Assembly (NCBI GenBank): GCA_900315485.1
Contig: OMZI01000007.1
Coordinates: forward strand, 1-64,000
Length of the DNA stretch: 64,000 nt
Source: an uncultured Eubacteriales bacterium
Lineage (GTDB): Bacteria > Bacillota > Clostridia > Peptostreptococcales > Anaerovoracaceae
Direction of reading: 5' to 3'
Positions within the stretch are counted from its first letter, which is position 1. Each line of letters starts with the position of its first letter. Shown here piece by piece: positions 5,711 through 63,990 of the stretch. The position numbers were made by a program, and so were the translations under genes. Under the pieces are notes generated by a model. It was not told the DNA's origin and did no database searches. It worked only from the letters and a program-made list of their open reading frames with translations.

Positions 5711-6928
5711 CTATTTCACAAGCTTTGCAATTGCCTCAGCGCACTTTACGCACTTCTCTTTTGAGATGGATGCGATGGATACTCTGATGCCCTTAGGCAG
5801 TGCGAGGCAGTAGATGTCCTGCTCCTCGAGCTTTGCACATACCGATGCAGCGTCGTCACATGCAACGGTTACGAAGAAACCTGCGCTGAACGGTACGCAC
5901 TTCACGCCGTTGTCGTTCAGGGTCTTCTCGAAGACTCTGCCTCTTTCGAGAAGCATGTCTCTGTATCCCCTTCTCTCCTCGTCGACCTTGGCCAGAAGTT
6001 CAGGATCGCTGTAGATCCTGCCCATTGCTACCTGTGCGGAGCGGTTGCAGTTGGACCATGTCGCACGTGCCATGTACTCGGAAGCTCTCTTGAACTCCTC
6101 TGCCGTCTCCTCATCATGAGCGACGCATACGATGGCTCCGCATCTCATGCCGTAAGCTGTGAGAGTCTTGGATGCGCTGTAGCCGTAGATCGTGAGAACG
6201 TTGCTGCCGAGCTCCTCAAGCATCGGCATAAATGCTCTTACCTCGTCATCCTCGCCTGCATAGTCGATGTATGCGACGTCGAGGAAGAGGACTACTTTGC
6301 ACTTTGCGGCATTGACGATCCTTATTACATTGCTCCAGTCCTCAAGGGACAGTGAGTAGCCTGTAGGATTGTGCGCCGGTGTGTTGATCATCAAGATGAC
6401 CTGATCCTGCTTCTCAGCGAGAGCGTACAGCTGCTTCTCAAGATCAGCGCTGTCGAACTTTCCGTCTTCATCGAAGAATCTGAAAGTCGCCAGATTGCGG
6501 CCGTTCTCACTGCAGATGTTTCTGTAGTTAGCCCAGCACCAGTCATGAGTCAGAACGCTGTCGCCGAAGTCCGAGTAGTTCTCTATAACGTTGGTGATGC
6601 TGCCTGTTCCGCCAGGTGTAGCGCATACGCGTACGAATCCCTTCGGCTGGAACTTTCCGAAGAGAGCCTTCTGAACGGCTTCCTTGAATGCAGGGGTTCC
6701 TGCGATAGGAGCGTACTCTGCATAGTCAGCAGGCCCGAGAGTCTTGATGGCATCCATTACAGATGACATTACTACGAGATCTCCGTTGTCATCCAGAAGA
6801 GCGCCGATAACGGCGTTAATGACAGCATCCTTGCCCTTTTCGGCAGTCGCAGCCTTGGCGCGTCCGTTAAGAGCGAATACTTTGTCAGCAACAGGAATAG
6901 TCCTGCCGTTTTCCTTTACAAAACCCAT
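5711..6928 (-). CDS. Class I/II PLP-dependent aminotransferase (aspartate/aromatic type)
   Basis: 405 residues from the ATG at 6928, which has GAGGTG at good spacing. An in-frame GTG nine bases upstream overlaps that ribosome site and is rejected. Fold-type I motifs: HNPTGY (about residue 190), LDVAYIDY, and GYSASKTLTAYG with the Schiff-base lysine; a late arginine in IRVSIAS may bind the substrate alpha-carboxylate. The sequence resembles the AspC/TyrB branch more than AlaT or HisC. Beside oxaloacetate decarboxylase and aspartate racemase it most likely transaminates aspartate to oxaloacetate. The exact amino donor is inference. Confidence 0.82.
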   Translation of the reverse strand: MGFVKENGRTIPVADKVFALNGRAKAATAEKGKDAVINAVIGALLDDNGDLVVMSSVMDAIKTLGPADYAEYAPIAGTPAFKEAVQKALFGKFQPKGFVRVCATPGGTGSITNVIENYSDFGDSVLTHDWCWANYRNICSENGRNLATFRFFDEDGKFDSADLEKQLYALAEKQDQVILMINTPAHNPTGYSLSLEDWSNVIRIVNAAKCKVVLFLDVAYIDYAGEDDEVRAFMPMLEELGSNVLTIYGYSASKTLTAYGMRCGAIVCVAHDEETAEEFKRASEYMARATWSNCNRSAQVAMGRIYSDPELLAKVDEERRGYRDMLLERGRVFEKTLNDNGVKCVPFSAGFFVTVACDDAASVCAKLEEQDIYCLALPKGIRVSIASISKEKCVKCAEAIAKLVK

Positions 6929-10193: not shown

Positions 10194-11540
10194 CTACCTG
10201 CTGTTAATGAACGTCTGAAGAGCTCCGATGAGGTACTTCCTGGATTCTTCAGGTGCGATGACTTTGTCGGCAAAACCGTGTCTTGCCAGTGCGAGAGCGT
10301 TGGTCTGCGAGTCACGGAACTGCTGCTCCAGTTCAGGTGTCCACTTTCCGAAGATGACCTCGGTGGCCTGTCTCGGGTCGACGATGCTGATGTCTGCGCT
10401 GTCCCACATGAATACGTAGTCAGCTCCGAGTCCCTTGGAGTTCAGCATACTGTAAGCACTTCCGACTACAGTGCCCGTGATCAGGTTGATCTTAGGAACT
10501 GTCGCATTGATGAATGCGTTGATAAGTCTTCCGGCTGCACTCGGCATGAACTTCTCGCTCTCCGACTTGGTATCATATCCTTCTGTGTCCGTAATGGTCA
10601 GGATCGGAATATTGAACTTGTTGCAGAAGTTGACGAGCCTTGCAGCCTTGTCGCATCCTGCTGCTGTGATCCTCTTCTCTCCGTCTACCGCGTTGCAGGC
10701 GGCGACCCCGATGATCTGGCCGGCGATCCTGATGAATCCGGTGATCATGTCCTCGCCCCTGTCCTTGGCGGTCTCAACTACCCTGTGGTTGTCCGAGATG
10801 TCGTCGAGGATGGCTCTTGCATCGCCGAGCTTGTATCTCAGGTCAGGGCATACTCTGTTCAGTTCTTCATCGCTGATGTCCTTGATGTACGGTGCAAAAT
10901 CCGTGCTGGCAGGAAGGATACGGATGAGTCTCCTTATCCTCTCAACGATCTCTTCCCACTCGTATGTACCGTCATCGTTGGCCTGGATGTACGGGTTGTT
11001 TCCGATAGCATTGGCTACGACACCCTGCGGGTTAACGAATATGCTTCCCTTGTCCTTTTCAAGGAAGACAAAATCCGCGAGCTCTGCGGATATGGACATT
11101 CCGCCTCCGCACTGTCCGATGACAGCCATGAGCTGCGGGATCTTCTTCGATGCCTCCGACTGCCTCTTGTACAGCTTTGCAAACTGATAGAGTCCGTCGA
11201 GTCCTTCTTCTATACGGAAGCCCGCGCAGTCGAGAAGTCCGATGATCGGAGCCCTTGCCTTTATGGCGTGCTCGTACAGATCTACTAACTTCCTGCCGTG
11301 CTGCTCGCCGAAGGTTCCTCCCATGACCTCATTATCCTGCGCAAAAATAAAAACGAGGTTGCCTTCGACCGTGCCGTAACCGGTTACCACACCATCGGAT
11401 TCAACAACCTCATCCGGATGGTAGAACTCAGTATACCTGGCCGATACATGCTCCCCGATCTCCATAAAACTGCCCGGATCCAGGATATCGATTACCTTGG
11501 AAATGGCAGTCGTTCTTTCATCACTTGGTCTGACTTGCAT
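10194..11540 (-). CDS. Acyl-CoA-type carboxyltransferase subunit (MmdA / transcarboxylase 12S-like)
   Basis: 448 residues with the double crotonase fold of biotin-dependent carboxyltransferases. The N-half has GTFGEQHGRKL and GQCGGGMSISAELADF; the C-half has GCDKAARLVNFCNKFNIP and VVGSAYSMLNSKGLGADYVF. Shorter than typical methylmalonyl-CoA decarboxylase alpha subunits (about 510). It would exchange CO2 between an acyl-CoA and the biotin carrier. First gene of the operon, divergent from the LysR gene. Having this and OadA on one carrier is the transcarboxylase set (12S, 5S, 1.3S) plus a Na+ pump. The acyl-CoA substrate (propionyl, acetyl, glutaryl type) cannot be told from the sequence. Confidence 0.85.
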   Translation of the reverse strand: MQVRPSDERTTAISKVIDILDPGSFMEIGEHVSARYTEFYHPDEVVESDGVVTGYGTVEGNLVFIFAQDNEVMGGTFGEQHGRKLVDLYEHAIKARAPIIGLLDCAGFRIEEGLDGLYQFAKLYKRQSEASKKIPQLMAVIGQCGGGMSISAELADFVFLEKDKGSIFVNPQGVVANAIGNNPYIQANDDGTYEWEEIVERIRRLIRILPASTDFAPYIKDISDEELNRVCPDLRYKLGDARAILDDISDNHRVVETAKDRGEDMITGFIRIAGQIIGVAACNAVDGEKRITAAGCDKAARLVNFCNKFNIPILTITDTEGYDTKSESEKFMPSAAGRLINAFINATVPKINLITGTVVGSAYSMLNSKGLGADYVFMWDSADISIVDPRQATEVIFGKWTPELEQQFRDSQTNALALARHGFADKVIAPEESRKYLIGALQTFINSR

Positions 11541-11618: not shown

Positions 11619-11670
11619 ATATGAATAATGGTATGAATGCTATATTATTGTTCTTATATGTATACAGCGC

Positions 11671-11752
11671 GTTCAGCTTACCCTGCTCGCGTCCTCGAAA
11701 TGCCGCACATCCTTATGGCATTTCTGCGGAATACTCGCAGTGCAAGCTGAAC
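11671..11752 (+). repeat. GTCCTC/TGCGG hairpin element A, in the lysR leader
   Basis: Outer arms GTTCAGCTT (11671-11679) and AAGCTGAAC (11744-11752) pair perfectly. The inner helix is GAAATGCC (11697-11704) with GGCATTTC (11717-11724), loop GCACATCCTTAT. GCTCGCGTCCTC precedes the inner helix and TGCGGAATACTCGC follows it; this internal motif recurs at 28263, 48350 and 61499. It lies 38 bp before the lysR ATG in the same direction, so it would be in the transcript leader. No U-run follows, so it is not a simple terminator. Confidence 0.7.
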
Positions 11753-11790
11753 ATGCTGATGACAAAGATGACACATAAAGGAAACCGGCA

Positions 11791-12768
11791 ATGGATATAT
11801 TCAGGAAGAAAGAAATAGTAACTGCTATATATAAGGAAGGTGGATTCTCGAAGGCGGCCAAGGCTCTGCACATTGCTCAGCCTTCTCTCAGTGTCATGGT
11901 CTCGAATATAGAAAAGGAGATCGGTGCCAGGCTGTTTGACCGGAGCACCTCTCCGGTGCGTCTCACGCAGATCGGTGAGAAGTATCTCGAATGCTGCGGC
12001 AACATATCCATGATCGAAGAGGACTTCATCAGCTATGTCAACGACATCAAGGGTATCAAGGTCGGTGAGATTGCTCTCGGCGGAACGACTCTGTACATGT
12101 CGAATATCGTCCCGGACATACTGAATGAGTATTCGGTCATGCATCCTTCCATCCACATAAGACTGTATGACTACGACACTCCTGCACTCATCAGCATGCT
12201 TCTGAGCGGTGAGCTTGATATCGTAATAGATAACCTTCCGTCGGAAAACGAGCAGCTCGCAGGCCATTATCTCGGAACGGAATATCTGCTGATCGCCATA
12301 CCGAAGAGCTTTGCAGTCAACGTAAAGCTCGAAGAGAATGCATACTCCTTTGAGGAGATAACAGCCGGGAAGCATACCGAGAACATCCATCCAGCGCTCG
12401 ACTATTTCAGGCCGCTGACAAAGCAGCCGTTCATCCTCCTTCAGGATGGCTTCGACACACGCAGAAGATGCGATGCAGTGTTCAAGGACTACGGTGTCAG
12501 AATCGATCCGGTATATGAACTGAACCAGCTGTCAAGCGCTTTCGGTATGGCAGCTTCAGGCCTCGGCATTACTGTCGTCAGCGACACTCTTATCAGGCAC
12601 TCCCCTAACTGGGGCAGCCATATGCTCTACTACTCAGTAAACCACAGTGAATTCATCCGTGATGTGTGCTATTACACCAGAAAGCACAGGATGCTATCCC
12701 TCGCTCTCGAGGAGTTCATAGATATCAGCAGAGAGCTGCATCCTTTCACTCAGAGCCTGCCGCTCTGA
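11791..12768 (+). CDS. LysR-family transcriptional regulator
   Basis: 325 residues. The N-terminal winged HTH (about residues 5-65) has FSKAAKALHIAQPSLSVMVSNIEKEIG, typical of the family. The rest is a periplasmic-binding-protein-like effector domain. ATG preceded by AAGGAAA. It is divergent from the aspartate/oxaloacetate operon across 250 bp that contains a TATAC-N10-GTATA dyad, so it probably controls that operon. The ligand is unknown; aspartate or oxaloacetate would fit the context. Confidence 0.9.
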   Translation: MDIFRKKEIVTAIYKEGGFSKAAKALHIAQPSLSVMVSNIEKEIGARLFDRSTSPVRLTQIGEKYLECCGNISMIEEDFISYVNDIKGIKVGEIALGGTTLYMSNIVPDILNEYSVMHPSIHIRLYDYDTPALISMLLSGELDIVIDNLPSENEQLAGHYLGTEYLLIAIPKSFAVNVKLEENAYSFEEITAGKHTENIHPALDYFRPLTKQPFILLQDGFDTRRRCDAVFKDYGVRIDPVYELNQLSSAFGMAASGLGITVVSDTLIRHSPNWGSHMLYYSVNHSEFIRDVCYYTRKHRMLSLALEEFIDISRELHPFTQSLPL

Positions 12769-18586: not shown

Positions 18587-18614
18587 CAGGCTATCTTCCT
18601 CCGTTTATGCTATT

Positions 18615-19426
18615 TTACTGAATGATTCCCAGATCCAGCATAGCCTTGCGGAGCCTCTGAAGATTAGCCTCCTCCATGCGGTACAGCGGTGATCTGAGGA
18701 TAGGATCGCACCAGCCCATCATTGCCAGAGCTTCCTTGACCGGGATCGGGTTGACCTCGCAGAAGAGAGCCTTGACGAGCTCATTGTACTTGCACTGGAG
18801 TGCTGCGGAACCTGCTACATCGCCATCCCAGAACTTTGTGCAGATCTCTCTTGTCTCCTTAGGGATGACATTGGAGAGTACCGAGATGACTCCCTTTCCA
18901 CGATCTTGGAGATGTTGCTGTTTGCTTCCTTGATAGCTGCTACTCCGTCGATCTCGGCGAGCTTGACATATGTTGAAGGCTCTATGTTGAGACCTGTTCT
19001 CGAAGGAACGTTGTAAGCGATGATAGGAACATCACTGACACTTGCGTACTCGCTGAAGAGCTTTACAAGACCGTTCTGTGTAGCCTTGTTGTAGTACGAA
19101 GTTACGATCAGGCATGCTGCTGCGCCGGCGTCACTTGCGTACTTGGTCAGCTGCTTACCGTATTCTGTGTGGTTGGAGCCGGTTCCTGCGATGATAGGGA
19201 CTCTGCCGGCTGCTCTTTCTACGGCAAAGCTGATGCATTCCTTGTGCTCCTCGTCGGTAAGTGTCGAACCCTCACCTGTTGTTCCTGCGATGACGAGTGC
19301 ATCGATGCCCGATTCGATCTGCCAGTCGATCAGTTTGCCGAACTGGTCAAAATTGACTCCGGTCTCTGTCATCGGAGTAATGAGAGCAGTTGCAACTCCT
19401 TCGAAAATAGTCTGTGTTCTTGCCAT
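18615..19426 (-). pseudogene. dapA: 4-Hydroxy-tetrahydrodipicolinate synthase, frameshifted by an internal deletion
   Basis: The N-terminal part reads from the ATG at 19426 (GAGGAGGT ahead) through PMTETG, AGTTGEGSTL, YYNKATQNG, YNVPSRTG and AIKEANSNISKIVE, then leaves frame near 18902. The other frame resumes with KGVISVLSNVIPKETREIC and runs to a normal C-terminus ending at 18615. Family members carry about 26 more residues here, including a SGNDD-like segment, so roughly 80 bp are missing, not one base. Key residues Thr-Thr (GTTGEG), Tyr (YNVPSR) and the Schiff-base Lys (IKEAN) remain. No other damage is seen, so the event is recent or an assembly fault. DapA is needed for DAP and wall synthesis unless another copy exists. 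Confidence 0.85.
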
Positions 19427-19518
19427 TGTTTGATACCTCCTCATTTTGAATGGTGTTTTCCAAGAATGAGATAAGGCTACCTCTAAGATACTTCAGATAC
19501 TGCCGTGATTTGTAATAG

Positions 19519-19546
19519 AAAAAGCAGCCGACACGGATCAGCTGCT
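19519..19546 (-). terminator. Attenuator terminator of the lysine riboswitch
   Basis: On the minus strand AGCAGC and GCTGCT (19541-19546 with 19523-19528) form a stem followed by TTTTT. It lies between the aptamer and the dapA ATG, the position of a riboswitch-controlled terminator. Confidence 0.82.
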
Positions 19547-19582
19547 CATGACAAATCAAAACAATCTCTGATTTCTTATCAT

Positions 19583-19749
19583 GGATAGCGCTCCGCGTAA
19601 TCGCGACAGTCGGCCGTATCTTATTCCGTCCGCCCAGATCAGAAAGGGTGCAGCCTTTACATCACTTCGGCGTCAGCCCCTTTCATTTCACCCTCCACTG
19701 CACTGATCTCCGGGATCACTACTGATGACGTGACGCGTCCTCTATCTCA
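19583..19749 (-). promoter_or_regulatory. Lysine riboswitch (L-box) aptamer
   Basis: Reading the minus strand, P1 is GATAG (19742-19746) with CTATC (19584-19588). Between them are the L-box landmarks in order: AGAGGACGC at the start, CAGTAGTGATCC, GACGCCGAAGT, AAGGCTGCACC, CGACTGTCGC and GGAGCGCTATCC. These match the known lysC leader motifs (AGAGGTGC, GCCGAAG, GGCTG, CTGTC, GGAGGGCTATC). Lysine binding should favour the terminator at 19519-19546 and so shut off dapA-dapB-ddh-lysA. It accounts for most of the 487-bp gap before dapA. Confidence 0.9.
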
Positions 19750-19758
19750 ATTATTCGC

Positions 19759-26762: not shown

Positions 26763-28214
26763 TTACCAGCCAAGCAGGCCGTCGTACAGCTCTCTGTACT
26801 TCTCAGCGGACTCTTCCCATCCGAAGTTGGCGTCGAATGCGTTCTGCTGGAGCTTTTCCCATACATCATGGTGCTCGAACCACAGGTTGAGCGCGAGGTC
26901 AACAGTGCTTCTGAGGCCGTTGACATCAAAATCCTTGAAAGAGAATCCGTTGGCATTTTCACCGTAGTCCCAGTAACCTGCTACGGTATCCTTAAGTCCG
27001 CCTGTCTCTCTTACGAGCGGAAGTGTTCCGTATCTCATCGAGATCATCTGAGCAAGGCCGCATGGCTCGAACTCTGAAGGCATCAGGAATACGTCAGCTG
27101 CAGCATAGAATCTTCTTGAGAGTTTCTCGTCGAAGGTGATCCTTGCAGCGAAGTTCTCAGGATTGTGATATGCAAAATCGCCGATGGCGTTCTCGAATCC
27201 GAAGTCGCCCGTACCGAGAACTGCGACCTGCATGTATCTCTCGCGGAATTCAGGCAGGAGCTCTGCGATCAGGTTGGCACCCTTCTGCTGTGTCAGACGG
27301 CTTACCATTGCGAACAGCGGAACATCCGGGTCCTCTCTCAGGCCGAGCTCTCTCTGGAGCTCCAGCTTGGCCTCTGTCTTCTTCTCGAGATGGTATCTGT
27401 CAAAGTGTACAGGGATAGCAGGATCCTTCTCCGGATCATAGTTCTTCTTGTCGATTCCGTTGATGATGCCGGAGAGCTTGTACTTTCTCGAAGTGAACAG
27501 TCCCTCAAGACCTTCGCCGTATCTTACGGTGCAGATCTCATCAGCGTATGTAGGGCTTACAGTCGTTACTGCATCTGAGTATATAACAGCTCCCTGCATG
27601 AAGTTGACAGCGTCATCGTGGATCATCTGTCCGTCAGCCGGTGTGCCTGTGAGACCGAGAACGTCGCCGACCATGGTTCTGCTGTACTGTCCCTGGAACT
27701 TCAGGTTGTGGATGGTGAATACAGTCTTGATGCGGTCATAGAGCTCATCACCGTTGTAGTACTCTCTGAGGTATACAGGTACGAGAGCTGTATGCCAGTC
27801 GTTGCAGTGGAGGATGTCCGGTGCAAAAGTCCTTGCGATGTGTCTGATCGTCTCAAGCACTGCTACCGAGAAGAAAGCGACTCTCTCGCCGTCATCAAAC
27901 TCTCCGTATACTCCGCTTCTGCTGAAGTAGTACTCGTTGTCGAGGAAGTAGTATGTGACTCCGCCCTTTCTCAGGGTGAAGAGTCCGCAGTACAGGCTGC
28001 GCCATCCGAGCCTTACCTCATAATTCTCGACGTATTTCATCTTCTCTCTGTACTCCCATAGAATGGAGCTCAGCAGAGGCAGGATTACTCTTGCATCGTA
28101 GTCATCATTCTTGATATATGCAGGCAGCGATCCTGCAACATCACCGAGACCTCCGGTCTTGATGAACGGAGTAGCTTCGAATGCTGCGAATAAGACCTTC
28201 TTTTTCTCTCCCAT
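26763..28214 (-). CDS. glgA: Glycogen synthase (ADP-glucose)
   Basis: 483 residues, GT5 family. The ADP-glucose-binding KTGGLGDVAGSLP lies near residue 20; HCNDWHTALVP, VSRLTQQKGANLI and PSEFEPCGLAQMISMRYGTLPLVRETGGL in the C-terminal half are the expected GT-B motifs with the catalytic glutamates. Extends alpha-1,4-glucan chains. ATG preceded by AAGGAGA. It heads its own transcript with the GH13-GH77 fusion, since a terminator separates it from glgD. Confidence 0.96.
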   Translation of the reverse strand: MGEKKKVLFAAFEATPFIKTGGLGDVAGSLPAYIKNDDYDARVILPLLSSILWEYREKMKYVENYEVRLGWRSLYCGLFTLRKGGVTYYFLDNEYYFSRSGVYGEFDDGERVAFFSVAVLETIRHIARTFAPDILHCNDWHTALVPVYLREYYNGDELYDRIKTVFTIHNLKFQGQYSRTMVGDVLGLTGTPADGQMIHDDAVNFMQGAVIYSDAVTTVSPTYADEICTVRYGEGLEGLFTSRKYKLSGIINGIDKKNYDPEKDPAIPVHFDRYHLEKKTEAKLELQRELGLREDPDVPLFAMVSRLTQQKGANLIAELLPEFRERYMQVAVLGTGDFGFENAIGDFAYHNPENFAARITFDEKLSRRFYAAADVFLMPSEFEPCGLAQMISMRYGTLPLVRETGGLKDTVAGYWDYGENANGFSFKDFDVNGLRSTVDLALNLWFEHHDVWEKLQQNAFDANFGWEESAEKYRELYDGLLGW

Positions 28215-28262
28215 AATACCGTTTCTCCTTTTTTCTTAATCAGCTATATAGTTACATGTAGT

Positions 28263-28482
28263 GTTTGCGGGCGGAGTGCGTAAAAATTGTCGTCCTCGGA
28301 ACAGGACAATTATCTCAATTTCTTCGGTCTTCACGGGACACTTGCAAAACTCGCTCTGCAGCTTCATTTCGCTCGGACAGTTGCAAGTGTCAGCCGTTCA
28401 GTCTGTCAGAAATTTCGTAATTGTCAGCAGCCCTGAAACTGTTCCTGCGGAATAACAATTTTTACGTACCCCGACCGCAAAC
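28263..28482 (+). repeat. GTCCTC/TGCGG hairpin element D, 220-bp long imperfect palindrome
   Basis: Nested paired segments from outside in: GTTTGCGG (28263) with CCGCAAAC (28475); CGTAAAAATTGT (28279-28290) with ACAATTTTTACG (28455-28466); GGAACAG (28298-28304) with CTGTTCC (28439-28445); then GACAATTA/TAATTGTC and GACACTTGCAA/TTGCAAGTGTC towards the tip. The family motif is at CGTCCTC (28291) and TGCGGAATA (28446). It fills most of the 370-bp glgA-glgD gap, which holds no reading frame. On the plus strand it is antisense to its neighbours. Confidence 0.72.
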
Positions 28483-28522
28483 TTATGAATTATTACTCTA
28501 ATCACCTGTACTATTAAATCAG

Positions 28523-47115: not shown

Positions 47116-48255
47116 CTATATCTCCTTGATGAAGCATCTGCGCCTCTTGTGAGGCTCCACATCGAACATCTTCCACTGGTGATGCACCTTGGTATTGGTC
47201 TCAAGCTGCGGTCCGGTCTCTGCCTGACGGATGCCGTGCTTGACGCATCCGGTATACAGATGCTCCATGATGATGCCGTTGACTCCGGTCTTCTGGAGCT
47301 CAGGTCTTACCGCAATAAGGAAGAGGTCAAGTGTGTCGTTGAACTTGAGTGACTTCAGCACTCCTGCCCAGCCTACCGGGAAGAGGTGGCCGCGGCACTT
47401 CTTCATGGCTTCAGCCATGGAAGGCGCTCCGACTCCGAATCCCATCAGGTCGTCATTGTCATCGGCAATGAGGCAGCAGAAATCCGGGTCTATAAGAGGC
47501 AGGAATTTGTCAGTGTACTTGTCTATCTGTCTCTCTGTCAGCTCGACAACTCCGTACAGCGGCGCATACGCGATATTGATGAGCTCAAACGCTTTGCGCA
47601 CATACGGCTTGACGTCGCTTCTTCTCTTTACAGTTACCTTGTGATATCCCGTACGCCTCAGCATGGCATCGGATATCCTCTTGAGTCTGGCGTAGATCCT
47701 GTCATCCTCGCCGCCGTCGCCAACAGGGATCATGTGCTCGATCCAGTCGATGTCCTTGACATAGCCGAGTGCCTCGAGGTGATCCAGATAATACGGATGG
47801 TTGTAGTATGTGATGAACATGCTGCGCTTATCGAAGCCCTCTACCAGCATGCCCTCTCTGTCAAGATCGCAGAATCCAAGCGGTCCGTGGACCTCCTTCA
47901 TGCCCTTCTCGCGGGCCCAGTTCTCGACAGTTTCGAAGAGCGCTGCGGACACTTCGCGGTCATCTATGAAATCGACCTGAGAGAATCTCATGCGCTTTGT
48001 TCCCCATCTCTCATTCGCCCTGTGGCTGAGGATGGCTCCTATCCTTCCCACGACTTGGCCGTCGCGGTATGCGAGAAACGCTCTCGCTTCACAATATTCG
48101 AATGCGGGATTCTTCTCCCTGTCCCAGTCGGCCATATCGTCGCCGTAGAATGCAGGAACAAAATTTTCCACATCACGATAAAGGCGGTTCGGATATTCCA
48201 CGAAGGTCTTCCTGTCCGCCCTTGATAATACCTCTTTGATCAATACGCTGCTCAA
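47116..48255 (-). CDS. GNAT-like acyltransferase family protein, unknown substrate
   Basis: About 379 residues if translated from the TTG at 48255, which follows AGGGAAAGG; no ATG lies near the conserved N-terminus, and longer frames run into the upstream repeat. Conserved blocks: VEYPNRLYRDVENFVPAFYGDD, KRMRFSQVDFIDD, MKEVHGPLGFCDLDREGMLVEGFD, and a second acetyltransferase-like half ending AETGPQLETNTKVHHQWKMFD. The pattern matches a widespread uncharacterised clostridial protein with tandem GNAT-like folds. A coupled ABC exporter follows 28 bp downstream. Confidence 0.75.
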   Translation of the reverse strand: MSSVLIKEVLSRADRKTFVEYPNRLYRDVENFVPAFYGDDMADWDREKNPAFEYCEARAFLAYRDGQVVGRIGAILSHRANERWGTKRMRFSQVDFIDDREVSAALFETVENWAREKGMKEVHGPLGFCDLDREGMLVEGFDKRSMFITYYNHPYYLDHLEALGYVKDIDWIEHMIPVGDGGEDDRIYARLKRISDAMLRRTGYHKVTVKRRSDVKPYVRKAFELINIAYAPLYGVVELTERQIDKYTDKFLPLIDPDFCCLIADDNDDLMGFGVGAPSMAEAMKKCRGHLFPVGWAGVLKSLKFNDTLDLFLIAVRPELQKTGVNGIIMEHLYTGCVKHGIRQAETGPQLETNTKVHHQWKMFDVEPHKRRRCFIKEI

Positions 48256-48349
48256 TTGTCTAAAACCTTTCCCTGTTAAGTCAGAATGCCCCTCTGCATA
48301 ATAACTCAAAGTGCAGTATATCACATCTTCAGTCATTTCTTCCACGAAA

Positions 48350-48440
48350 AGCAGGATAAAAGCGTATTCCGCTCGAGTCCTCGCTGCCGCAGTCATTACA
48401 TGCACCTGCGGGTTCTCTCTCCACACGCTTTTATCCTGCT
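48350..48440 (+). repeat. GTCCTC/TGCGG hairpin element B
   Basis: Perfect 16-bp arms AGCAGGATAAAAGCGT (48350-48365) and ACGCTTTTATCCTGCT (48425-48440). Inside are GCTCGAGTCCTC, then a short helix with loop GCAGTCATTACAT, then TGCGGGTTCTCTC. The interior matches elements A and C; the arms do not. It lies between the pta terminator and the acyltransferase gene, on the strand opposite to both. Confidence 0.75.
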
Positions 48441-48450
48441 CTCTTAAACA

Positions 48451-48483
48451 TAAAAAATAACCCGCAGACAGGATATCTGCGGG
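48451..48483 (-). terminator. Terminator after pta
   Basis: CCCGCAGA (48461-48468) pairs with TCTGCGGG (48476-48483). On the minus strand it is followed by TTATTTTTTA. Confidence 0.88.
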
Positions 48484-48504
48484 CTTCGTACGAGCGTGCT
48501 GTTT

Positions 48505-49515
48505 TTACAGTGCTGCTGTGATGATCGCCATCTTGTAGACTTCTTCTGCGTCGCATCCGCGGGAGAGGTCATTGATAGGTGCATTGAGTCCGAGGAGGAT
48601 AGGGCCGTAAGCTGCATATCCGCCGAGTCTCTGTGCGATCTTGTATCCGATGTTTCCTGCCTCGATGAGCGGGAATACGAATGTGTTGGCATATCCTGCT
48701 ACCTTGGAGCCAGGGAACTTGAGCTGGCCTACTGTAGGGGATACAGCTGCGTCGAACTGCATCTCGCCGTCGATAGCCATGTCAGGGTTGAGCTCCTTAG
48801 CGATCTTTGTTGCCTCTGCGGAGAGTGCAACTGTGCCGCCCTTGCCGGATCCCTTGGTGGAGAAGCTCAGCATTGCAACCTTAGGGTCGATGCCGAATAC
48901 TCTTGCGCACTTCTCGATCTCAACTGCTACTTCAGCAAGCTTCTGAGCTCCTGTGAATGTAACGTTGCCTTCCTTGTCTACGCTGTCAGTGTAGTCGAGG
49001 TTGACTGCGCAGTCGCCCATAGCGATAGTTCTGAGGTTCTCGTCTCCACCCTCTCTTGTGAGGATGAAGCATGAGCTTACGAGGTGAGCGCCCGGCTTGG
49101 TCTTTACGAGCTGGAGTGCAGGACGGATGGTGTCAGCTGTGGAATATGTTGCTCCGCCGAGGAGGCAGTCAGCCTTGCCCATCTTGACGAGCATGGTTCC
49201 GAAGTAGTTGCCCTTGAGGAGGTTAGCTCTGCACTCATCTGCAGTCATCTTGCCCTTGCGGAGCTCTACCATCTTCTCAACCATTTCTTCCATGCCTTCA
49301 TATGTCTCAGGATCGAGGATCTCTGCTCCGTCGATATTGAAGCCGCCCTTAACTGCAGCAGCCTTTACCTCATCAACATTGCCTACGAGAACGACCTTCA
49401 TCAGGCCCTCTGCGAGCAGCTTTGCAGTTGCTTCCTGGATACGGGCATCAGTACCCTCTGTGAAAACGATAGTCTTAGGCTGTGCCTTGACTTTTTCAAT
49501 AAGTTTATCGAACAT
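48505..49515 (-). CDS. pta: Phosphate acetyltransferase
   Basis: 336 residues from the ATG at 49515 (AGGAGACAG ahead); the longer frame has no support. Class I Pta core: IVFTEGTDARIQEA, DCLLGGATYSTADTIRPALQL, SCFIL, MLSFSTKGSGKGG, DGEMQFDAAV and FVFPLIEAGNIGYKIAQRLGGYAAYGPILLGLN. Interconverts acetyl-CoA and acetyl phosphate for acetate-linked ATP formation. No acetate kinase gene is adjacent. Confidence 0.95.
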   Translation of the reverse strand: MFDKLIEKVKAQPKTIVFTEGTDARIQEATAKLLAEGLMKVVLVGNVDEVKAAAVKGGFNIDGAEILDPETYEGMEEMVEKMVELRKGKMTADECRANLLKGNYFGTMLVKMGKADCLLGGATYSTADTIRPALQLVKTKPGAHLVSSCFILTREGGDENLRTIAMGDCAVNLDYTDSVDKEGNVTFTGAQKLAEVAVEIEKCARVFGIDPKVAMLSFSTKGSGKGGTVALSAEATKIAKELNPDMAIDGEMQFDAAVSPTVGQLKFPGSKVAGYANTFVFPLIEAGNIGYKIAQRLGGYAAYGPILLGLNAPINDLSRGCDAEEVYKMAIITAAL

Positions 49516-49629
49516 TTTCTGTCTCCTGTTTGTTCCTTTTACGTTATAAAATATGTGTTTCCATCGCATGAACTTCAGTGAGCCCATACACAGAAATTAT
49601 ATCCTACAGGTCTCTGCAATTCAATAGAA

Positions 49630-61366: not shown

Positions 61367-61498
61367 AATCGGATCCTCCTTATACTATATATTTAATGAC
61401 ACAAAGTTTATAGAACTCCCTTGTATCATCTTAGACAAAGTATACCATACATTTTGTGCTATTTGTGTAGCACGAGTGCAAAATCTGCGAAATAAAAC

Positions 61499-61608
61499 AA
61501 AGCAAAAACTAAAGCATGCCCGTGCGAGAATCCGCAGAACGTGCCATGAAGATATGCGGCACGTTCGAGGACTCGAGCAAAGGGCATGCTTTGTTTTCGT
61601 TTTGCTTT
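61499..61608 (-). repeat. GTCCTC/TGCGG hairpin element C, after hypD
   Basis: On the minus strand AAAGCATGCCC (61582-61592) pairs with GGGCATGCTTT (61511-61521), with an outer AAAGCAAAA/TTTTGCTTT helix. Inside are GCTCGAGTCCTC, then the helix GAACGTGCC/GGCACGTTC with loop GCATATCTTCAT, then TGCGGATTCTCGC. It starts about 10 bp after the hypD stop and a T-rich stretch follows it, so it may also terminate hypD. It lies about 130 bp before hpf. Confidence 0.75.
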
Positions 61609-61617
61609 TAAAGAATA

Positions 61618-63990
61618 CTAGAAGCTCTGAGCTGTTCTGTTGATGATCTCATCCTGCAGCTCTTTGTCCAGATTCCTGAAGTAATCAGAGTATCCTGCAA
61701 CACGGACGATCAGATCCTTGTAATCATCAGGGTTCTGCTGTGCCTTGAGCAGAGTCTCCTTATCGAATACGTTGAACTGTATGTGGTGACCGTCCATAGC
61801 GAAGTATGATCTGATAAGGCTTGCCAGGTTGTCAAGGCCGGTCTCGCCTGCGATAGCGCTCGGTGTGAACTTCTGGTTCAGAAGTGTTCCGCCTGTTGAG
61901 CAGTGGTCCATCTTAGCGCAGGACTTGATAACAGCTGTAGGGCCGTTTGTATCAGCGAACTTCTCAGGTGAGATACCCTCGGATACAGGCTTGTTTGCAA
62001 GTCTGCCGTTTGCTGTAGCACCGATAACTTCACCGAAGTAGATGTGGCATGTTGTCGGCAGCATGTCAACGTGATACTGTCCGCCGCTCATTGTAGGACG
62101 TCCTGTTACCTCGTCTCTGTACTGCTTGAATACATCCTGCATGATGTCATCAGCATAGTCGTCATCGTTTCCGTACTTAGGAGTCTTGTTCGTGACCATG
62201 TTGAAGATCTCTTCGTGGCCGACGAAGTTGTCATCCATAGCCTGGATCAGCTCTTCCATTGTGAAGTTGTGGTTATCAAATACGTTGTACTTGATAGCTG
62301 ACAGGCAGTCTGTGATAGTTCCGATACCAACACCCTGGATGTATCTTGTGTTGTATCTTGCACCGCCGTTGTTGTAATCCTTGCCCTTTTTGATGCAGTC
62401 GTTGGTTACGATCGACAGGCATGGTGCAGGCATGTAGTTAGCGTAAAGCTTCTCGATAACGTTGTTTCCGCGTACCTTGACATCTACCATGTGGTGGAGC
62501 TGCTTTTTGAAAGCATCCCAGAGATCATCATAGCTCTTGAAGTCCTTGGCATATCCTGTCTCGAGTCCGAGCTGCATTCCGGACTGGTTGTCGAATCCGT
62601 TGTAAAGTGTGAGCTGGAAGATCTTAGGGATGTTGAGGTATCCTGTCAGGATGTAAGCCTCGTTGCCCCATGAACCTGTCTCTACGCAGCCGGATGATCC
62701 GCCCTGTCTTGCGTCATCAAGAGTTTTGCCTGCATTGAGGAGCTCCTGAACGATCTCGTCTGTGTTGTAGAATGCCGGCTGGCCCCAGCCCTTTCTTGAG
62801 ATCTCGCATGCTCTCTTGAGGAATCTCTGCGGAGTCTTCTTGCTGATCTGAACATTGGAGTTAGGCTGAACGAGCTTCATCTCGTCCATGCAGTCGAGGA
62901 TCAGATAGCTGACGGCGTTGACGCCGTTGGTTCCGTCTTCCTTGATTCCGCCTGTGTTGATGTTTGCAAAATCTGTATATGTGCCGCTCTCCTTGAGAGT
63001 AACGCCTACCTTTACAGGTGCAGGCTGGTTGTTGAACTTGACCCAGAGGCACTCGAGGAGTTCGAGAGCTCTCTCGTCATCGAGGATGCCGTCCTCAACG
63101 TCCTTCTCATAGTAAGGGATGAGGTGCTGGTCGAGTCTTCCCGGGCTGAATGCGTCCCAAGGGTTCAGCTCTGTAGTAACTGCGAGGTGTGTGAACCAGT
63201 ACAGCTGGATAGCCTGCCAGTAAGTCTGAGGCTTGTGAGCCGGAATTACCTCGAGGTTAGCTGCCATCTGCTCGAGCTCTGCCTTACGTACAGGGTCTGT
63301 GCACTTTGCAGCCTCTTCCTTGATGAGGTCATGATATCTCTGGCCGAGGATAATAACTGCATCGCAGTCGATAGCCATAGCTTCAAGTTCGTCCTTCTTA
63401 GCGAGAGCTTCAGGATCGTTCATGAAGTCCAGATTGTTGATAGCTTCCTGGATCTCTTCCTTATATTCAGCGTATCCCTTTGTGAATACGTTCTTGCCGC
63501 CACATGTGTGTCCCGGACCTCTCTGCTCCATGAACTCTGTGAACATTCCTGCTGCATAGCAGTCTCTCCACTCCTGAGTCATGCTTGAGAGCAGCTTGTC
63601 TCTCATCGACTTACCCTTCCAGTAAGGGATGATGATCTCTTCCTGATCCCTGAGGTCCTGCTCAGTAACGGAATAGTTAACGACCTTTCTGTCGTTCATG
63701 ATGTGCATATCCTCAAGGGTATGGCATGTGAGCTCAGGGAATGTCGGTGAGGACTGTGGGTCCTTACCCTTTTCGCCTACGATCAGTTCGCCTTCTCCGA
63801 GGTAGAGAGTCTTCCTGCTGAAGTACTCTTTGAGCACGAGAGCTCTGAGTACAGGGAGGGAGACCTTGTCTTCCCATTCCTTGTAGACTTCAGTCTCGAT
63901 AAGTGCTCTTTCGAGATCGATGTGCGGCTGAGTCTCCATACTTACTTTTCTGAGAGCCTTGATCCTTGCATTCATTCCGCGTTCTTCCAT
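61618..63990 (-). CDS. hypD: trans-4-Hydroxy-L-proline dehydratase (glycyl radical enzyme)
   Basis: 790 residues. The active-site loop GGSSGCVETGSWG holds the thiyl cysteine and catalytic Glu, and the glycyl-radical loop RVAGYSDYF lies near the C-terminus. These, with NTGGI, QISKKTPQRFLKRACEISRKGWGQPAFYN and RGPGHTCGG, match the characterised Clostridioides difficile HypD rather than pyruvate formate-lyase or choline lyase (GCVEP). It removes water from hydroxyproline to give pyrroline-5-carboxylate, for reduction to proline. It needs a radical-SAM activase (HypE), expected outside the window. Start ATG follows GAGGATC; the window ends 10 bp beyond. Oxygen-sensitive, so the organism is anaerobic. 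Confidence 0.96.
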   Translation of the reverse strand: MEERGMNARIKALRKVSMETQPHIDLERALIETEVYKEWEDKVSLPVLRALVLKEYFSRKTLYLGEGELIVGEKGKDPQSSPTFPELTCHTLEDMHIMNDRKVVNYSVTEQDLRDQEEIIIPYWKGKSMRDKLLSSMTQEWRDCYAAGMFTEFMEQRGPGHTCGGKNVFTKGYAEYKEEIQEAINNLDFMNDPEALAKKDELEAMAIDCDAVIILGQRYHDLIKEEAAKCTDPVRKAELEQMAANLEVIPAHKPQTYWQAIQLYWFTHLAVTTELNPWDAFSPGRLDQHLIPYYEKDVEDGILDDERALELLECLWVKFNNQPAPVKVGVTLKESGTYTDFANINTGGIKEDGTNGVNAVSYLILDCMDEMKLVQPNSNVQISKKTPQRFLKRACEISRKGWGQPAFYNTDEIVQELLNAGKTLDDARQGGSSGCVETGSWGNEAYILTGYLNIPKIFQLTLYNGFDNQSGMQLGLETGYAKDFKSYDDLWDAFKKQLHHMVDVKVRGNNVIEKLYANYMPAPCLSIVTNDCIKKGKDYNNGGARYNTRYIQGVGIGTITDCLSAIKYNVFDNHNFTMEELIQAMDDNFVGHEEIFNMVTNKTPKYGNDDDYADDIMQDVFKQYRDEVTGRPTMSGGQYHVDMLPTTCHIYFGEVIGATANGRLANKPVSEGISPEKFADTNGPTAVIKSCAKMDHCSTGGTLLNQKFTPSAIAGETGLDNLASLIRSYFAMDGHHIQFNVFDKETLLKAQQNPDDYKDLIVRVAGYSDYFRNLDKELQDEIINRTAQSF

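Follow-up and report, generated by a model that had tools for sequence, protein, structure and literature searches.

Long hairpins with a fixed, mismatched core and with arms that differ from copy to copy are dispersed between the genes of an uncultured Eubacteriales bacterium and some of its relatives. We read them, with a confidence that stops slightly short of even, as a family of dispersed extragenic palindromes that resembles REPs in placement and turnover and carries its conserved core in the middle of the hairpin. The copies form one family with a common fold, their core diverges little between orthologues, most of them lie at stop codons, and both the arms and an extra hairpin turn over between genomes.

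Window elements and anatomy of the core

The window, that is the whole stretch of 64,000 nucleotides that was analysed, belongs to a genome of 2.52 Mb (G000) and contains three of these hairpins (Table 1). All three are present in the sequence as an earlier note on this DNA had described them, the third on the minus strand, and the arms it had named were correct: GTTCAGCTT pairs with AAGCTGAAC, AGCAGGATAAAAGCGT and ACGCTTTTATCCTGCT form a perfect 16-bp pairing, and an outer repeat of 29 nt, 72% complementary, ends in AAAGCATGCCC/GGGCATGCTTT. The shared core that it proposed is real, with a conserved part larger than first stated, and the agreement it saw between apical loops proved loose and mostly confined to one subtype. 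When the folds were compared with 200 dinucleotide shuffles, z-scores of -5.0, -6.6 and -8.9 were obtained for elements 1, 2 and 3, with 0/200 shuffles as good in each case. A covariance model recovered the elements at 11667-11755 (+, 75.9 bits), 48353-48436 (+, 63.5 bits) and 61508-61596 (-, 63.1 bits), scores that are not independent because all three were among the 30 sequences from which the model was built. A weak match at 6314-6391 (15.4 bits) was left out of the family.

Table 1. Positions in the window of the three hairpins, their cores and one site that is occupied in relatives
Feature	Position	Strand	Description
Element 1	11667..11755	+	subtype A: CTGCTCGC-GTCCTCG...CTGCGG-AATACTCGCAG
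Element 2	48350..48440	+	subtype B: CCGCTCGA-GTCCTCG...CTGCGG-GTTCTC
Element 3	61494..61610	-	subtype B
Element 1, core and apical helix (GTCCTCG ... CTGCGG)	11691..11729	+	
Element 2, core and apical helix	48377..48411	+	
Element 3, core and apical helix	61532..61572	-	
Site without element between dapA-like and dapB-like genes	18613..18640	-	comparison with relatives

Element 1 lies between divergent genes for a carboxyl transferase (10194-11540, -) and a LysR-type regulator (11791-12768, +), a setting atypical for the family, and its orthologues in G001 and G067 contain an additional hairpin of 43-45 nt within the core. Element 2 is antisense to both of its neighbours, a PTA_PTB-family gene (48505-49587, -) and a GNAT gene (47116-48426, -); in G001 and G067 the 5' arm is kept and the 3' half is lost, with part of the core also kept in G001. 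A separate terminator-like hairpin (CCCGCAG/CTGCGGG, at about 48460-48485) directly adjoins element 2 and has the hexamer CTGCGG inside its stem, possibly by chance. Element 3 is in sense and begins about 9 nt past the stop codon of a pyruvate formate-lyase-like gene (61618-63990, -). At its place in G035, G022 and G015 there is a plain GC-rich, terminator-like hairpin instead.

The anatomy of the hairpin was read from an alignment (A1, MAFFT) of 30 members from G000, G001 and G022, in which the core aligns cleanly. The core reads 5' GUCC-U-C-G / C-U-GC-GG-A-RU 3' and usually adjoins a UC/UC loop. Outermost are the copy-specific arms; over 43 sites, the median number of pairs beyond the core is 16. 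Inside them follow a GC/GC clamp and a 2x2 UC/UC mismatch, from which one of the 30 rows deviates on one side, then an R-Y pair (G-C in 22 rows, A-U in 8) and a position with C.A (15 rows), A-U (14) or C-G (1). Further inward come an invariant G.U, a U-A and a purine bulge missing from some rows, and then two invariant C-G pairs, U.C, C-G and a bulged U. A G-C pair starts the copy-specific apical helix, in which both sides vary at the later pairs. The signature of subtype A is CTGCTCRC...AATAYTCGCAG and that of subtype B CGCTCGA...(G)RTTCTCGC. In distant members GUCC-UC / UGC-GG and long arms persist, and the UC/UC loop may be missing (G015, G026). On the opposite strand this loop would be a tandem G-A, so by sequence either strand may be the active one. 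One divergent member (L224, G001 C139:2802-2907) has a long apical part and lacks the UC/UC loop, its arms leading directly to GTCC; the place in the window orthologous to it (28205-28514, minus strand) is longer, and no core can be recognised there.

The outer arms differ between copies yet pair, and the fold is supported by the covariation score. In the 30-row alignment this score was 0.560, whereas shuffles gave 0.180 and slid pairings no more than 0.185. Among 78 model-aligned rows (73 distinct), which were fitted to the structure and contain one doubtful match from the window, it reached 0.694 against 0.173 and 0.139, respectively, with 91.5% of 1783 cells paired; kinship among the sequences inflates scores of this kind. 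Two of five structure measures on the 30-row alignment were barely above shuffles, namely pairs changed on both sides (18 vs 15.7, reached in 15/500 shuffles) and pair types (57 vs 51.0, reached in 9/500).

Structured RNA families in Rfam resemble these elements in having a covariation-supported fold with a conserved internal loop; they differ in that none matches, and in that the copies here are found on either strand with respect to the neighbouring gene. At the gathering threshold of Rfam 15 the sole match in the window was a lysine riboswitch elsewhere, with none at the elements, and a tRNA was the only match at 11 loci that carry distant, divergent or other members. At a relaxed threshold, the element-overlapping matches at 20 loci of the same genome, two eukaryotic miRNA models among them, fell far below thresholds, and none was convincing. 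A ribozyme, riboswitch or other known RNA was rejected on this lack of an Rfam match, no Rfam ribozyme having matched, and some 27 copies would also seem too many for a riboswitch. The family for which the earlier note had proposed building a covariance model is real, its internal core is fixed and its arms covary; the arms differ among copies at different places, not having been copied along with the core.

Distribution and placement

The pattern GTCCTCG-N(8-38)-TGCGG occurs at 44 places in the window's genome, against 11 with a reversed control, and inspection of the pattern loci gave 22 exact-core members. By covariance model, 27 copies were found in this genome, 21 in G067, 15 in G001 and 8 in G022, with single copies in G029, G015 and G026 and a doubtful one in G011, the arms of which pair poorly; overall, 10/47 genomes in the genus search had matches. 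Partial 20-bit matches in G019 and G016 are taken to be chance. The close relatives G035 and G069, whose dapB proteins are 95 and 97% identical, gave no covariance-model match. An order-wide search with 11 candidates scored per genome found matches in at least 10 of 393 genomes, three of them in the same genus, six in other genera of the family and one in another family. Those in G321, G306 and G350, from other genera of the family, have long paired arms, those in G080, G356 and G338 are doubtful, and the match in another family (G230) is convincing, again with long paired arms.

A pattern scan of named genomes matched Mogibacterium sp. RGIG5733, Clostridiales RUG11020 and Clostridia SRR12081301_bin.56, the matching loci of which are those of G022, G067 and G001, respectively. 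It also yielded a member in a Clostridiaceae MAG (39.3 bits), judged convincing, and several further matches that are apparently chance. A Nitrospira stretch that looks coding, from contigs chosen beforehand by the core pattern, reached 31.9 bits, and a score of about 30 bits is therefore no proof of membership on its own. Viral, phage or plasmid carriage was rejected: viral contigs gave one pattern match with a weak model score of 12.4 bits, and element 3 had no blastn match in phage and plasmid records. No description of the core was found in a literature search that covered few subscription journals.

Of 43 distinct sites, 31 have a stop codon no more than 16 nt from where the hairpin begins, a limit chosen after the distances had been seen; at sites 44, 54 and 76 a short ORF also ends near the other side. 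The core of these stop-adjacent copies is on the coding strand in 24/31 and on the opposite strand in 7/31 (p = 0.003), a preference that leaves room for a role in RNA. The sense, antisense and convergent classes were assigned by reading from simple longest-ORF gene calls, and at tandem sites alone (17 sense vs 11) the strand bias is not significant (p = 0.34). Twelve of the 43 sites lie between convergent genes, and 17 between co-directional genes in sense, many beginning at the stop codon. Members do occur on either strand, as first noticed in the window, and the antisense copies carry intact cores. At least six T among the ten bases after the 3' arm were seen at 7/43 sites and the mirror tract on the opposite strand at 9/43, so termination cannot be the common role. 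According to PMC12306157, REPs no more than 15 nt from a stop codon stall ribosomes in E. coli, where 446 of 4,072 lie within 15 nt of one, and PMC4824070 describes a terminator starting at the stop codon that was almost completely repressed when tested in E. coli.

Divergence, turnover and covariation of the arms

Between orthologues the core changed at 5/866 sites (0.6%), the apical helix and loop at 49/809 and the arms at 74/1391 (5-6%); Fisher tests of core against apical part and core against arms gave 2.6e-11 and 5.8e-11, on 31 pairwise comparisons among G000, G001 and G067 that share genomes and are not independent. Copies from G022, copies that were not the same element and rearranged copies were excluded. 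Because copies were found by their core, decayed copies are hidden, and element 2 in G001 and G067 is an example of such decay. The low core divergence may come in part from concerted evolution between copies, or from the core-based finding itself.

Among 59 pairs that changed between orthologues, 32 were single changes, paired in one genome and unpaired in the other, and pairing is therefore not strictly maintained; 15 double and 10 single changes kept the pair. Symmetric scoring of mispairs in the arms and apical helices of the 43 sites gave 21 G.T and 28 A.C, against 20 G.T and 9 A.C in 24 ordinary terminators behind ORFs in the DNA of the examined loci (Fisher p = 0.035), a control that required a T-rich tail and ungapped stems and was counted in a similar, not identical, way. 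The elements thus have no G.U excess, and the 17 tandem sense sites alone gave 5 G.T vs 11 A.C. Between G000 and G001 one copy (C38:35790) has been inverted in place, and in another G001 copy the 3' arm extends as an imperfect inverted copy of sequence reaching the end of the preceding gene, as a template switch would leave it. Homogenisation of arms and inversion of the spacer by template switching between palindrome arms have been published (PMC8604942, PMC8794818). Given the wobble balance, the in-place inversion and the inverted extension, arm covariation weighs less as evidence for RNA. The earlier note had taken compensatory arms as the sign of an RNA class, which is not supported as stated: the G.U excess is missing, antisense copies have intact cores and one copy is inverted. 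What stands of its structured RNA is the family, the fixed core and the covarying arms; given the strand preference and the near-invariant core, a role in RNA is possible.

Turnover is visible where whole elements are present or absent. Between the dapA-like and dapB-like genes a member is found in G001 and G067 and nothing in the window's genome; G035 has a perfect 18-bp hairpin that lacks the core and has its outer arm in common with the core-bearing copies of G001 and G067, and G069 has the 5' arm only. At a second intergenic site the members of G067 and G022 differ in subtype and arms, and G000 is empty. Insertion of the core into a ready-made host terminator was not supported at the site empty in the window, which has no arms, and the G035 hairpin with its common outer arm partly revives this idea in the form of an exchange of tips. 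Derivation of the arms by copying the flank of the empty site was set aside: neither of the two empty sites whose flanks are closest showed it. The dapA-like gene of the window (18613-19530, -) is led by a lysine riboswitch (19578-19752, -, 72.3 bits) and followed by dapB. Its frame is interrupted in this genome, with a 209-aa piece that has a DHDPS match and the remainder in another frame; G001 and G067 have an open dapA-like frame of about 304 codons at the same place.

In some copies the extra hairpin of 43-45 nt occupies the purine bulge of the core. Its presence differs at three sites between genomes with flanks 81-99% identical. The hairpin has a conserved sequence around CGCTTGCGGTGGAT (L006, L081, L195, L196, L197, L198, L219, L245 and L247), and exact matches to the CGCTTGCGGTGGAT 14-mer in six genomes all lie inside family members, L245 and L247 included. 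In our reading, L245 and L247 are a divergent member with the extra hairpin in its core and with a compensated change at a pair that is invariant in the alignment. L211 is an extra-hairpin variant that lacks the 14-mer.

Known systems and competing explanations

REPs are described in PMC3733652 as short extragenic palindromes, mostly 3' of coding regions between unidirectional or convergent genes, that vary in abundance among related species, and the present family is like the GTAG and CGTC super-families, with or without RAYT, in palindrome type, in placement behind genes and in abundance differing between relatives. The CGTC repeats, too, lack a dedicated transposase, and none of the candidates tested here follows the family. 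The same source gives REP families a common stem sequence with an unpaired terminal tag, and CGTC stems A-T pairs at the start almost invariably and a short tail mostly fitting CCA; here, by contrast, a longer paired stem encloses the tag-like GTC, the mismatched middle is conserved and the stems are copy-specific. In A1 the base before GTC is C in 16/30 rows and A in 14/30, GTCC pairs with GG-A-RU, and the stem after GTCC starts with C-G and G-C pairs, with no conserved CCA tail and no GTAG in the conserved columns. Intrinsic terminators share the hairpin 3' of genes, with a T tract ending some copies, and differ in that the family has a conserved mismatched core, usually no T tract, and stems often starting at the stop codon; a hairpin followed by a T tract describes some copies and not the family. 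Integron attC sites also fold into hairpins with conserved irregularities and a variable terminal structure. Their outer boxes are RYYYAAC / GTTRRRY, whereas the outermost arms here are long, unconserved and without such boxes (A1 columns 1-15 and 78-92 are not conserved). The family is best filed as a REP or stem-loop repeat with a conserved middle and renewed arms.

An enzyme that could mobilise the family was sought. A Y1_Tnp RAYT-like transposase gene (37 bits; L260) at G000 C35:67150-67893 (-), about 3 kb beyond the window, has a different palindrome around GGGACGGTCC on both sides and no R1 match in its flanks. The palindromes around GGGACGGTCC are a second, distinct REP-like family. The gene occurs in G000 and G001, partially in G067, and in 11/47 genomes of the genus; G022, with 8 copies, has no RAYT-like match, and the protein occurs in genomes where no family copy was found. 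PF01797 was found in 6/14 chosen genomes. Neither this distribution nor the flanking palindromes fit a RAYT or other IS200-like Y1 transposase as mobiliser. PF00078 reverse transcriptases, present in 4/14 chosen genomes with no match in G000, G001 and G022, were rejected because they do not follow the family either.

As palindromes of this kind, the long hairpins would act in the 3' untranslated or intercistronic part of an mRNA, through protection of the 3' end, as a brake on the ribosome at the stop codon, and by termination where a T tract follows. A putative trans-acting factor would dock at the core, reading the folded single strand, and the arms would stay paired largely by template switching between them. 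Such switching would account for the one flipped copy and for double substitutions that skip G.U intermediates, so arm covariation alone is no proof of RNA. Several observations stand against the palindrome reading: the seven stop-adjacent antisense copies are not explained by recognition in mRNA alone, neither the tested Y1 transposases (including the RAYT-like one) nor the reverse transcriptases match the family in distribution, a T tract follows few copies, 32 of the 59 changed pairs were paired in one genome only, and the low core divergence may have the other causes named above. A sequence-specific RNA class (a protein-binding 3' UTR motif, a processing signal or a small ribozyme), which would have to be transcribed in the orientation of the core, draws support from the 24/31 stop-adjacent copies in sense and from the near-invariant G.U pair, the C.A/A-U exchange, the pyrimidine loops and the low divergence of the core. 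We consider it unlikely, since seven stop-adjacent antisense copies have intact cores, one copy was inverted in place, the 17 tandem sense sites, too, show no wobble excess, and Rfam has no match. It is very improbable that the copies are ordinary intrinsic terminators sharing a tip by descent; plain terminator-like hairpins do occupy the place of element 3 in relatives, and 12/43 sites are between convergent genes, but a T-rich tail follows on the core strand at only 7/43 sites and on the opposite strand at 9/43, 17 sense sites are co-directional with many starting at the stop codon, and the core is conserved across unrelated loci.

A purely selfish mobile DNA, in which the folded single strand (core and apical helix) would be the substrate of a putative hairpin-specific recombinase or transposase, is as improbable in our estimate as the RNA class. 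It would have no use to the host, and the stop-codon placement would merely mark where insertion is tolerated; attC and the ends of IS608 are comparable in principle. The patchy spread, with many copies in four genomes and none by model in the close relatives G035 and G069, agrees with it, as do the presence or absence of whole elements and of the inner hairpin between close genomes, the invariant mismatches and bulges that mark one strand, and the lack of a G.U excess. However, dead copies should decay evenly unless conversion repairs them, and orthologous cores are 0.6% diverged against 5-6% in arms and apical parts; moreover, no enzyme was found among the Y1 transposases and reverse transcriptases tested, element 3 had no blastn match in phages or plasmids, and no viral-contig pattern match was convincing. 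A somewhat less doubtful possibility, still well below the palindrome reading, is that the mismatched centre alone is the heritable unit. The core would then spread among existing hairpins behind stop codons and the small hairpin into the bulge of the core, the arms being re-made locally by template switching and the core fixed by a putative hairpin-reading factor; re-made from local sequence, the arms would make copies look unrelated outside the core. The coreless G035 hairpin with the common outer arm and the G001 copy with the extended, inverted 3' arm lend this partial support.

A structured RNA is usually proved by covariation of its arms. In this family the covariation is very strong, yet the wobble balance, the strand and the inversion suggest that copying of arms at the level of DNA accounts for much of it, whereas a short core hardly changes; this makes the family a natural test case for separating selection on RNA from template switching. 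Should a factor indeed bind the core, the family would mark a system of 3'-end regulation or of mobile DNA in gut Clostridia related to Mogibacterium.
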